From Blastococcus sp. DSM 46786 (GTDB lineage Bacteria > Actinomycetota > Actinomycetes > Mycobacteriales > Geodermatophilaceae): a stretch of 64,000 nucleotides of DNA. How positions within the stretch are numbered: position 1 is the stretch's first letter; each line of letters begins with the position of its first letter. Position numbers and translations under genes: made by a program. Below the pieces are notes generated by a model. That model saw nothing but the letters and a program-made list of their open reading frames with translations. It searched no databases and was not told where the DNA came from. Positions 793 to 62,570 of this stretch are shown in pieces. The stretch covers positions 124,001 to 188,000 of the forward strand of contig NZ_FOAO01000001.1 of the NCBI RefSeq assembly GCF_900109665.1. The letters are read 5' to 3'.

Positions 793-945
793 GTGGCGGA
801 GAGCTACAACGGCTACTGCGTGAAGTGCAAGGAGAAGCGCGACTTCGACGGCGAGGTCAAGGTGAGCGAGTCCGGCCGCCGCATGGCGCAGGGCACCTGC
901 CCCGTCTGCGGCACGAAGATGAACCGGATCCTCGGCAAGGCCTAG
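793..945 (+). CDS. DUF5679 small zinc-ribbon protein
   Basis: A 50-residue protein with two CxxC pairs, CVKC near residue 9 and CPVC near residue 36, forming a probable zinc ribbon. The composition and length match the actinobacterial DUF5679 family, found widely but without known function. The GTG start has a good GAGGAG ribosome binding site about 6 bases upstream, which decides it. The gene is too short for ordinary ORF callers. Its TAG stop is the first base triplet of an R1 repeat, which forms a hairpin and probably acts as the transcription terminator. Confidence 0.85.
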   Translation: MAESYNGYCVKCKEKRDFDGEVKVSESGRRMAQGTCPVCGTKMNRILGKA

Positions 946-1008
946 AAGGATCCTTCTGCCCCCCACCACTCGCGAGCTCGCGGCGGGGCCCTGCAGAAGG
1001 ACCGTTCC
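943..1008 (+). repeat. R1 structured repeat anchored at the DUF5679 stop codon
   Basis: The copy starts with the TAG stop, then AAGGA, then TCCTTCTGC (951-959), which pairs perfectly with GCAGAAGGA (993-1001). Between the arms is CGCGAGCTCGCG, itself a palindrome. Other R1 copies have different arm sequences that still pair, so the structure is conserved more than the sequence. A role as terminator or 3' end element is likely. Confidence 0.7.
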
Positions 1009-1112
1009 ATGCAGTTTCGGTCGGCGGCGTCCCCTGCGGGGGGCGCCGCCGTCGTCGTGGGGGCCTGTGGACGACGGGCCCGGCCGCGCTCCCCGGCTGC
1101 CACCCTGCCGGG

Positions 1113-2291
1113 GTGAGCGACAACGCCCATCCCCTGCTCCCCGCGGCGACGCCGCTGCTCGCCGGAGACGCCGGCAGCGTCCAGGTCGGCGGAGTCGACT
1201 CCACCGACGGCCTGCTCCTCGGGGCCGCCGCGGGGCTGGCACCCGTGCTCCGCGCTCTCGACGGGCGCCGATCGCGGCGCACCGTCCGGGCCGAGGCCGC
1301 CGGACAGGGCCTGCCGCCGGAGCTCGTGGACGCCGCGGTCGACGCGCTCCGCTCGGCCGGGCTGGTGCACGACCTCGACCCGGCCGACCTGCTCGTGATC
1401 GGCCCCGGGCCGGCAGCCGCTGCGCGCGCGGTCGTGGAACTGCCCTCGGCCGGCTCCTCCCCCGGTCCGGGGAGCTGGCGGGCCCGGCGGCGGGCCACCG
1501 TGGTGGTCGAGGGGGCGACGCGCGTGGGCACCCCGCTGGCCGCGGTCCTGGCCGCGAGCGGGGTCGGCCGCGTCGTGGTGCGGGACACGGGCGTGGTCAC
1601 CGCCGCCGACGCCGTGGTGGGTGGCCTGACCGCCGCGGACGAGGGCCGCCCGCGCGCGGTGGCCGCGGCCGACGCCGTCCGCCGGGCGAGCCCGCTGACC
1701 GACCTGGGGCCGCTCCCCGTCGGTCTCCGGCCCGACCTCGTCGTCCTCACCCGCCCGTGGGCCGCCTCGGACCCGCTGGTGCCCGCGGTCCCGGGCCCGC
1801 ACCTGGTGGCCGCCGTCCGCGGCGAGACGGGCGTCGTCGGGCCCCTGGTGGTGCCCGGCGCCAGCAGCTGCCTGCGCTGCGCCGACCTGCACCGCCGGGA
1901 CGCCGACCCGCGCTGGCCCCGGCTCGCGGCCCAGCTGACCGCCTCGGAGACGCCCCCCAGCGGCGCCACCCTCACCTGCCTGCTCACCGCGGTGCTCGCG
2001 GCCGGCCAGGTGCTCGCCTGCATCGACGGGCGCGGCGCACCGGTCACCCTCGACGCCACCGTGGAGCTGCGCCCACCGGACCTGCTCCCCCACCTGCGGC
2101 GATGGCCCCCGCACCCGTCGTGCGGCTGCGGTGCCGCGACGGGCGGGGACGACCTCTCCGGGGCGGGTGGGGCATGCCCTCCCGGCGGGGATCCGCCCGC
2201 TCGGGCGACAATGGCCGCTGACCGAGCTCTCGGGCTCACCGGACACGACACGGCGCCGCTCCGCCCGGCCGCCGGCGAGGAGGACGTGTGA
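1113..2291 (+). CDS. ThiF/E1-like protein, bacteriocin-cyclodehydratase type
   Basis: A 392-residue protein. The central part reads VVVEGATRVGTPLAAVLAASG and then GRVVVRD, the nucleotide-binding fold of ThiF/E1-like enzymes. CLRC (about residue 252) and CGCG (about residue 338) look like the paired cysteines of a structural zinc site. The N-terminal ~130 residues resemble the leader-peptide recognition part of ocin-ThiF proteins. No precursor peptide, cyclodehydratase YcaO or protease gene is adjacent, so it is probably not part of a peptide-natural-product cluster; a comparable protein sits beside the AarF kinase in mycobacteria (Rv3196 region, from memory). The GTG start is weakly supported. 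Its last codons overlap the next gene by 4 bases (GTGA), implying translational coupling with the kinase. Confidence 0.6.
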   Translation: MSDNAHPLLPAATPLLAGDAGSVQVGGVDSTDGLLLGAAAGLAPVLRALDGRRSRRTVRAEAAGQGLPPELVDAAVDALRSAGLVHDLDPADLLVIGPGPAAAARAVVELPSAGSSPGPGSWRARRRATVVVEGATRVGTPLAAVLAASGVGRVVVRDTGVVTAADAVVGGLTAADEGRPRAVAAADAVRRASPLTDLGPLPVGLRPDLVVLTRPWAASDPLVPAVPGPHLVAAVRGETGVVGPLVVPGASSCLRCADLHRRDADPRWPRLAAQLTASETPPSGATLTCLLTAVLAAGQVLACIDGRGAPVTLDATVELRPPDLLPHLRRWPPHPSCGCGAATGGDDLSGAGGACPPGGDPPARATMAADRALGLTGHDTAPLRPAAGEEDV

Positions 2292-60871: not shown

Positions 60872-60920
60872 GTGAGGGACTGGAACGGCCCGGCTGCAGG
60901 GGAGCAGCGGGGTCCTCTCA
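60872..60920 (-). repeat. R1 repeat anchored at the sahH stop codon
   Basis: After the TGA the reverse strand reads GAGGACCCCGCTGC, then TCCCCT, then GCAGCCGGGCC; GCTGC/GCAGC pair, with outer arms matched except one position. A short copy lacking the central block. Confidence 0.6.
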
Positions 60921-62402
60921 GTAGCGGTAGTGGTCGCTCTTGTAGGGGCCCTCGACCGGGACGCCGATGTAGTCGGCTTGCACCTTGGTCAGCTCGGTGA
61001 GCTTCACGCCGAGGGCGTCGAGGTGCAGCCGGGCCACGTGCTCGTCGAGCTGCTTCGGCAGCACGGTGACGCCGGGGGTCTGCCCCTCGTAGGCGGCGCG
61101 GTTGTTCCACAGCTCGATCTGCGCCAGCACCTGGTTGGAGAACGAGGCGCTCATGACGAAGCTGGGGTGCCCGGTGGCGTTGCCCAGGTTCAGCAGCCGG
61201 CCCTCGGAGAGCAGGATGATCGTGTGGCCGTCGGCGAACCGCCACTCGTCGACCTGCGGCTTGATCGTCGTCCGCTCGATGCCGGGGGTGCGGGCCAGGC
61301 CGGCCACGTCGATCTCGTTGTCGAAGTGCCCGATGTTGCCGATGATCGCCTGGTGCTTGGTCCGCCCGAGCTGCTCGGCGGAGATGATGTCCTTGTTGCC
61401 GGTGGCCGTGATGATGATGTCGGCCTTGCCGATGACCTCGTCGAGCGTGGTCACCTCGTAGCCGTGCATCGCGGCCTGCAGGGCGTTGATCGGGTCGATC
61501 TCGGTGACGATCACCCGCGCGCCCTGGCCGCGGAGCGACTCCGCGCAGCCCTTGCCGACGTCGCCGTAGCCGCAGACCACGGCCACCTTGCCGCCGATCA
61601 TGACGTCGGTGGCGCGGTTGATGCCGTCGATCAGCGAGTGCCGGCACCCGTAGAGGTTGTCGAACTTGCTCTTGGTGACCGAGTCGTTCACGTTGATCGC
61701 CGGGAAGAGCAGCCGCCCGTCGCGGGCCAGCTCGTACAGGCGCATGACGCCGGTGGTCGTCTCCTCGGTGACGCCCGTGATGCCCTGGCCGATGCGGGTC
61801 CAGTACCCGGCGTCGGAGGCGAGGCTGCCGCGGAGGACGTCGAGGATGACGCCGTACTCCTCCGAGTCGGCGTCGGTGGTGTCGGGGACGGCGCCGTCGG
61901 CCTCGAACCGGCTGCCCAGGTGCACCAGCAGGGTGGCGTCGCCGCCGTCGTCGAGCAGCATGTTCGGGCCGACGACCTGGCCGGTCTCGTCGCGGAACTC
62001 GAACAGGCGCTGGGTGCACCACCAGTACTCCTCGAGCGTCTCGCCCTTCCAGGCGAAGACCGGCACGCCGGCCGGCTGCTCGGGGGTGCCGTCGCCGACG
62101 ACGATCGCCGCGGCGGCGTGGTCCTGGGTGGAGAAGATGTTGCAGCTGACCCAGCGCACGTCGGCGCCCAGCGCGGTCAGCGTCTCGATGAGGACGGCGG
62201 TCTGCACCGTCATGTGCAGCGAACCGGCGATGCGGGCGCCGGCCAGGGGCTGCGCGTCGCCGTACTCGGCGCGCAGCGCCATGAGGCCGGGCATCTCGTG
62301 CTCGGCGAGCTGGATCTCCTTGCGGCCGAAGCCGTGCAGGGAGAGGTCGGCGACCTTGTAGTCGCCGTCGGTCAGCGTGCGGGTGCCAGTGCTGGCGGTC
62401 AT
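60918..62402 (-). CDS. sahH: S-adenosylhomocysteine hydrolase
   Basis: A 494-residue enzyme. It splits S-adenosylhomocysteine into adenosine and homocysteine, removing the inhibitory product of methylation. [15 protein letters not shown] (~62), [43 protein letters not shown] (~275, NAD-binding) and the C-terminal SDHYRY match the family. ATG at 62402. The 108-base leader shows no riboswitch I recognise. It is the same order as Rv3248c in M. tuberculosis, downstream of mtrA. Confidence 0.95.
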
Positions 62403-62512
62403 GTCGCTCCAGTGTCCGCGCCCGACCGTGGACCGGCGGGCGCTGAGGGGTCGCTGAGGATGAGCGAGCATGCCGAGGCTTCGGCGGGGCTCGTACCGCC
62501 GTCCAGGATAGG

Positions 62513-62570
62513 TGAAGGACCCCGTCCTCCTCGCCCCTCGCAGGCTCGAGGCGAGCCTCTGGACGGGGCC
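62513..62570 (+). repeat. R1 repeat upstream of sahH
   Basis: TGA, AGGA, CCCCGTCC (62520-62527) pairing perfectly with GGACGGGG (62561-62568), with inner CTCGCC/GGCGAG. No open frame ends at its TGA, so this copy is free-standing, between the sahH and HNH genes. Confidence 0.75.

Follow-up and report, generated by a model that had tools for sequence, protein, structure and literature searches.

A palindromic repeat resembling repetitive extragenic palindromes, often anchored at stop codons in Blastococcus and other Geodermatophilaceae and probably mobile now or recently

We studied a stretch of 64,000 nucleotides (the window) from Blastococcus sp. DSM 46786, corresponding to positions 124001-188000 of contig NZ_FOAO01000001.1 (here C23) in a genome of 4.59 Mb, in which short hairpin-forming repeats lie beside the stop codons of several genes. 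A sequence-only reading of the window, whose G+C content was 75.5%, had listed at least ten copies of such a repeat, here called R1, and all ten places were found to hold something of the form described (Table 1). Six of the elements started, as had been claimed, at the stop codon of their own gene, and the names of these six gene families were confirmed by Pfam: DUF5679, moeZ-like ThiF/rhodanese, MiaE-like ferritin-fold, DUF6459, PNPOx and AdoHcyase. At the other four places (33129, 54295, 36500 and 62513) the element was not at its own gene's stop; the copy at 36435..36500 had its 5' end facing the start of the next gene and its 3' end facing the stop of a DEAD-box helicase gene. Scoring with a covariance model of the repeat gave a narrower result: seven places (943, 29067, 33129, 36500, 54154, 54295 and 62513) matched at E < 1e-7, and 33768, 50521 and 60920 were unmatched even at E <= 1, the first two of which look like decayed copies.

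Table 1. Places in the window that hold the repeat (positions counted from the first base of the window)
Feature	Position	Strand	Remarks
Copy at the stop of the DUF5679 gene	943..1008	+	TAG + AAGGA; R1 match
Copy at the TGA stop of a ThiF/rhodanese (moeZ-like) gene; inner hairpin short	29007..29067	-	R1 match; tandem 3' half-unit next to it
Intergenic copy whose 3' end and the stop of a convergent TetR gene are 2 nt apart	33124..33186	-	R1 match
Apparently decayed copy at the stop of a MiaE-like (ferritin-fold) gene	33720..33768	-	No R1 match
Copy with a TAG that ends no called gene	36435..36500	-	R1 match
Copy at the TGA stop of the DUF6459 gene, apparently decayed	50521..50585	+	No R1 match
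Copy at the TGA stop of a PNPOx-like gene	54154..54219	+	R1 match; AAGGA box diverged (GAAAACA)
Copy within a GNAT acetyltransferase gene, bringing an in-frame TAG	54295..54360	+	R1 match
Copy at the sahH stop, inner hairpin lost	60872..60920	-	No R1 match; orthologues of L049 and L050 intact
Copy upstream of sahH; its TGA ends no called gene	62512..62575	+	R1 match

The covariance model R1 (62 positions, 21 of them base pairs in the count of pairs) was built from 12 copies that we picked for near-equal length and aligned by MAFFT on sequence only, and its structure was written by us (alignment A3); the MAFFT alignment A1, in which the 5' foot of the 9-bp class was misaligned, played no part in building it. 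Over about 400 kb of C23 the model found 32 matches at E < 1e-4, plus one duplicate row for a stretch that overlaps another, and genome-wide at least 142 matches at E <= 0.1 among 150 candidates scored. The counts of positions, pairing and ends given below are based on 106 copies of this genome, read together with their surroundings.

The core of the element measures about 57 nt and consists of a conserved 5' foot, (TRR)GAAGGA, two stems (the outer of 8-10 bp, the inner of 8 bp with a frequent A.C mismatch), a loop UCGCANGCUC and a 3' foot, GGCC. In the consensus, the 5' foot is followed by an outer arm (for example CCCCGTCC), a few unpaired bases, the inner arm CTCACCGC and the loop TCGCANGCTC; on the 3' side of this loop come GCGGCGAG, CCTCT, GGACGGGG and GGCC. 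A tail starting with GTTCC, earlier described as frequent, followed the core in 47 of the 106 copies, and CACGTCACC lay slightly beyond GTTCC in 13. Conservation fell to background about 4 nt upstream and about 11 nt downstream of the R1 model. Part of the AAGGA box belongs to the stem, as its 5' foot (GG pairs with CC). The three outermost pairs, GAA with TTC, were formed in little over half of the copies, and GAA was retained even without its partner, 44-46 of the copies being unpaired there, so the AAGGA box has some role of its own. Behind some copies, 3' half-units that end in GTTCCAGNNCGTCACC were seen in tandem with a period of about 45-52 nt (C23 374.0-374.3 kb, locus L017; 1.6-1.8 kb, locus L001; window 28.9-29.07 kb), and a 41-bp tandem repeat occupies window positions 28124-28328.

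The repeat was widespread within the family and very uneven in number. In the genus, 22 of 23 genomes carried R1, with 2 to 135 matches at E <= 0.001, B. aggregatus having none; copy number was 2-12 in three other genomes of the genus and zero in genome G045. Across the Geodermatophilaceae, 101 of 112 genomes had R1 at E <= 1e-5 (48 candidates scored per genome, stricter filters), and nine of the 11 genomes without a match belonged to three genera and were assemblies in many contigs (190 to 550). In a draw of genomes from the whole order, 41 of 249 had R1; 38 of these were Geodermatophilaceae and the three others had 1-2 hits each. Strong matches outside the family, one or two per genome, were seen in G164 (family f2) and in G173 and G248 (family f10).

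Placement relative to genes was assessed with the 380 genes that a simple, error-prone caller based on codon usage placed on C23. Its omission of the TetR gene at 32486-33127 meant that the copy at 33124-33186 was counted as "divergent, other" in the position classes and was left so. Sixty-seven of the 106 copies began 0-5 nt after a stop codon on the same strand, with peaks at 2 and 4 nt, as against 1.7% under random intergenic placement, for which the null was every intergenic base of C23's 400 kb, room for the element not being required. Another six copies began 6-10 nt after such a stop and eight farther away. A divergent gene lay upstream of 24 copies, nine of which were 15-18 nt from its start (1.7% under the null for the class of 14-18 nt), and one copy was unplaced. 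Most of these nine, whose contexts were read by eye, had a TANNNT box against the element, TAGGGT in four cases. The 3' end was 0-3 nt from a convergent stop in six copies, and few copies were inside genes. The association with stop codons noticed in the window thus held outside it as well, and placement was not random. Near position 1500 of loci L171, L174, L195, L198, L204 and L209, the 5' end of the element directly abuts TANNNT-like -10 boxes; these boxes precede, by 15-18 nt, the start codons of divergent genes that are perhaps leaderless.

The 5' end also showed a sequence preference. Of the 39 copies away from stops, 22 still carried TRA/TAG before GGA (8% expected). Stop codons made up 290 of the 1157 non-coding TRA/TAG sites (25%) but 67 of the 89 TRA-anchored copies, a roughly threefold over-use; therefore the 5' end prefers TRA, and stops beyond that, and a pure TRA motif was rejected as an insufficient description of the target.

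Complementarity of the arms was as the sequence-only reading had stated, and far above controls. In the alignment of the 106 copies, which was fitted to the structure, 88.0% of cells paired, compared with 74.8% after shuffling and 28-44% with the partners slid; the covariation score was 0.332, compared with 0.107 shuffled and 0.031-0.045 slid, and 500 shuffles reached the observed value of none of the five measures. The sequence-only alignment of 12 copies agreed (0.209 vs 0.082 shuffled and 0.032-0.061 slid), one of the five measures being reached by 6 of 500 shuffles. The predicted covariation was thus present above both kinds of control. Several pairs flipped between G-C and C-G among the 106 copies (58:44; 45:42 with 17 U-A; 76:24; 43:40), mostly with few half-way states, the 43:40 pair having 14 unpaired cells; this is a pattern not commonly seen in RNA. 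Since the copies are related to one another, these pairing counts are no formal test.

The kind of pair that was tolerated is informative about the molecule in which the hairpin may be kept. Stems were 96% Watson-Crick (3024 of 3143 cells in the genome's own copies and those of other genomes together). Leaving aside the three foot pairs and the mismatch pair, and in raw counts from mutually related copies without a significance test, the 106 own copies had 13 G-U and 37 A-C cells where column frequencies predict 73 and 94, and 80 copies from other genomes had 7 and 19 where 45 and 55 are expected; the stems of the 186 copies together gave 20 G-U and 56 A-C, as against 118 and 148 under column independence. 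The A.C mismatch of the inner stem was present in 72 of 106 own copies and in 51 of 79 from other genomes. If the pairing were that of a coding-strand RNA, G-U would be expected to be tolerated more readily than A-C. We take these counts as a sign that what is maintained may be a hairpin in the DNA, or one on the opposite strand.

The sequence-only reading had ascribed the covariation to selection on an RNA structure. On that explanation, the repeat would be a cis-acting RNA of the 3' untranslated region whose hairpin, at most 5 nt past the stop, slows the terminating ribosome or protects the 3' end of the mRNA, RNA selection keeping the pairing. The contrast between the 67 copies directly after a stop on the coding strand and the six ending beside a convergent stop is consistent with such a role, as are the strong covariation, the over-use of stops among TRA sites and, in PMC12306157 (citing Liang et al. 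2015), the report that Escherichia coli repetitive extragenic palindromes (REPs) within 15 nt of a stop stall ribosomes. Against it stand the failure of G-U to be favoured over A-C on the coding strand, the frequent A.C mismatch of the inner stem, the absence of copies from B. aggregatus and G045 and their small number in three other genomes of the genus, and copies that are reversed or placed on the promoter side. The element is dispensable, selection on RNA structure does not follow from the covariation, and we regard a cis-acting RNA as unlikely.

Comparison of orthologous sites showed filled and empty alleles of the same loci. Of the own sites within the coverage of relatives, 20 were taken up (two of them decayed) and 18 were compared, each with up to six relatives and read by eye; the pair at window 54154/54295 was handled separately. 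At 17 of the 18 sites at least one relative had no element; for the exception, 209734, only filled relatives were comparable, and at C23:195787 only the upstream flank adjoins the site in most relatives. Among the places in the window, the moeZ-like site 29007..29067 was empty in the four relatives compared and 33124..33186 in five; no element was found at the DUF6459 site in six relatives compared; 62512..62575 was empty in five of six, the sixth (G009) being comparable on one flank only; and at 36435..36500 G009 carried a copy in the opposite orientation. In the spacer near C23:199647, the element stood at the first gene's stop in this genome and in G014, was reversed beside the second gene's -10 box in G007 and G015, and was absent from G009, G011 and G022.

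At several of these sites the stop codon came with the element. The DUF5679 gene ended in TGA, without an element, in the four relatives compared, and the same codon here was TAG followed by AAGGA. Likewise, C23:124945, 199647 and 202654 had TAG or TAA here and TGA in relatives without the element, G009 having TAG at 199647. At C23:95022, 1732, 186514 and 160435 the element's TRA was not the gene's stop: at 95022 the ancestral TGA was kept and the TAG of the element followed a few nucleotides later, and at 160435 there was no ancestral stop at the element's 5' end. One copy interrupted a gene. In the GNAT gene (window 54222-54715) the element at 54295 replaced about 60 nt of coding sequence and the downstream part lay in another frame. 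The Pfam match in the broken gene covered its C-terminal part only. Fifty loci were searched, and in the 16 relatives inspected from among them the gene ran on without interruption; its N-terminal part was absent altogether in six near relatives.

The sahH locus gave the broadest comparison. When filled and empty classes were assigned by R1 matches (for L071, L086 and L062 in this way and not by regular expression), 19 of 33 relatives had a match just after the stop, one of them reversed and with differing junctions among them, and 14 had none, including L057 with a partial copy at E 0.05 and L071 with a remnant. Apparent remnants with GGGGCC or GGGGCCGTTCCAG at their end persist in some of the relatives that had no match. 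The locus also bears on the proposal that R1 is a family of intrinsic transcription terminators. A GC-rich hairpin directly after genes would suit that role, but no T run followed GGCC, copies occurred in front of -10 boxes and inside a gene, and a separate perfect stem of at least 10 bp lay downstream of sahH both in relatives with a match (9 of 19) and in those without (5 of 14). The terminator suggested by the sequence-only reading is thereby disfavoured, and we hold it to be very improbable.

We therefore favour, with a probability of roughly 0.7, a REP-like dispersed palindromic DNA repeat of the Geodermatophilaceae, mobile now or recently, whose 5' end anchors at stop codons; it is dispensable, varies widely in copy number, has empty sites, occurs in both orientations, interrupts a gene and brings its own stop. 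A 5' end facing the target, a hairpin and the lack of a visible duplication recall single-strand HUH transposition. The repeat would have spread by insertion, probably in the form of a single-stranded hairpin on which an enzyme acts in trans. Its 5' end would settle on a TRA trinucleotide, in most cases the stop codon of a gene and more rarely a -10 box. A copy landing at a stop would bring a TAG or TGA of its own at that end, so that the protein would remain unchanged and the copy would be kept. The preference for stops beyond the motif may reflect such survivorship or a useful effect on termination. Complementarity of the arms would be maintained in the DNA hairpin, the two changing together. 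An effect on translation termination or on mRNA ends or stability is possible, and would then be a by-product or a later use. A fuller version, in which hairpin elements with their own stop are inserted at stops and -10 boxes by an enzyme outside RAYT/IS200, have their arms rewritten together and are adapted to the few harmless sites of a dense, G+C-rich genome, is offered tentatively and seems to us rather doubtful as a whole.

Several observations weigh against the mobile REP-like repeat. Motif alone does not explain position, which leaves room for selection for a stop-linked function; the excess of TAG/TAA at element-bearing stops was weak (17/67 vs 55/380, p = 0.03); and one inner pair (36.50) supplied 12 of the 37 A-C cells in own copies, without which A-C fell to 24 and G-U to 11. 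Insertions were accompanied by loss of some spacer or coding sequence, and neither target-site duplication nor clean excision was seen at the sites compared. Several sites, such as sahH and lpqB-comF, were common to different species, as would be expected equally of old insertions and of copies that selection retains. The search for a mobiliser also went against it: the RAYT domain Y1_Tnp (PF01797) was found in none of the 112 family genomes, with five of 14 control genomes positive, and no recognisable transposase was noticed among the genes between close copy pairs (200-3500 bases apart; judged by eye, with no family search), these being mostly recognisable housekeeping genes with some unknown proteins. 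A RAYT was on this ground rejected as the mobiliser. For Y2_Tnp (PF04986, IS91-type) none of the 23 genus genomes gave a match, the control genomes being silent too.

Some of the same facts bear on whether R1 could be a miniature inverted-repeat transposable element (MITE), that is, a non-autonomous derivative of an unrecognised insertion sequence, with GAAGGACCCC / GGGGCCGTTCC as its imperfect inverted termini. Those termini, the high copy number and the empty sites would agree with this origin, but target-site duplications were missing at the sites compared, no parent element turned up in a search that covered only genes between close copy pairs, and the copies differ in their arms. Young MITE families are usually near-identical. 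We judge a MITE very improbable.

Returning to the REP-like repeat, we compared it with described families. Rfam gave no match over the window at gathering scores, and when 281 bases around two copies were scanned with lax settings a single match appeared, at E 0.81 and far below its gathering score; the idea of a known RNA family was set aside on these scans. A search of open-licence papers found no description of this repeat in Geodermatophilaceae, so that the earlier statement that no family of this form had been described stood for the sequence itself; it did not stand for the kind, REP palindromes that lend a TAG stop having been published (PMC3733652). The features of REPs in the broad sense were found here: a short, mainly extragenic palindrome, dispersed in high copy (142 matches; 67 of 106 at stops) and present or absent at orthologous sites of close relatives.

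Like GTAG REPs (REP/BIME, REPIN; mostly from Proteobacteria, with RAYT), the element is a short imperfect palindrome of high copy number that is mostly downstream of genes, and the termini of GTAG REPs often supply the TAG stop of flanking open reading frames, according to PMC3733652. It differs from them in lacking a constant GTAG tag (GTAG stood directly before AAGGA in 12 of 106 copies, CTAG and TGA-type feet being common), in its core, which at about 57 nt is longer, has two stems and may be followed by a tail, and in belonging to a lineage without Y1_Tnp in 112 family genomes. GT pairing is frequent in REPs according to PMC3733652, whereas G-U is not favoured here; the element is actinobacterial, and the word "actinobacteria" occurs 0 times in that paper. 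CGTC REPs, described there (PMC3733652) as palindromes seemingly without a dedicated transposase, are in this respect like the element, but their CGTC is an unpaired terminal tag; alignment and end profiles showed no such tag here, CGTC occurring only inside the outer stem of one subfamily. With neither tag nor RAYT found, the element is therefore REP-like and neither a GTAG nor a CGTC REP. As for position, the stop-proximal REPs of E. coli have their hairpin within 15 nt of the stop and the element is within 5 nt in 67 of 106 copies. In 2015, Liang, Rudd and Deutscher reportedly counted 260 of 496 E. coli REPs near a stop; the figure in PMC12306157 is 446 of 4,072 (about 11%) within 15 nt.

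REPs are best known from Proteobacteria with RAYT; here is a family-wide actinobacterial case in which the RAYT domain was not found. With 63% of copies no more than 5 nt from a stop, the element is more sharply placed than the repeats of the REP papers compared. Strong covariation beside stop codons need not mean a functional RNA, which calls for caution with similar hairpins. Close species, several of which have been cultured, differ in whether a given gene carries the element, and such natural pairs may allow the effects of stop-proximal REPs on translation and mRNA to be followed.

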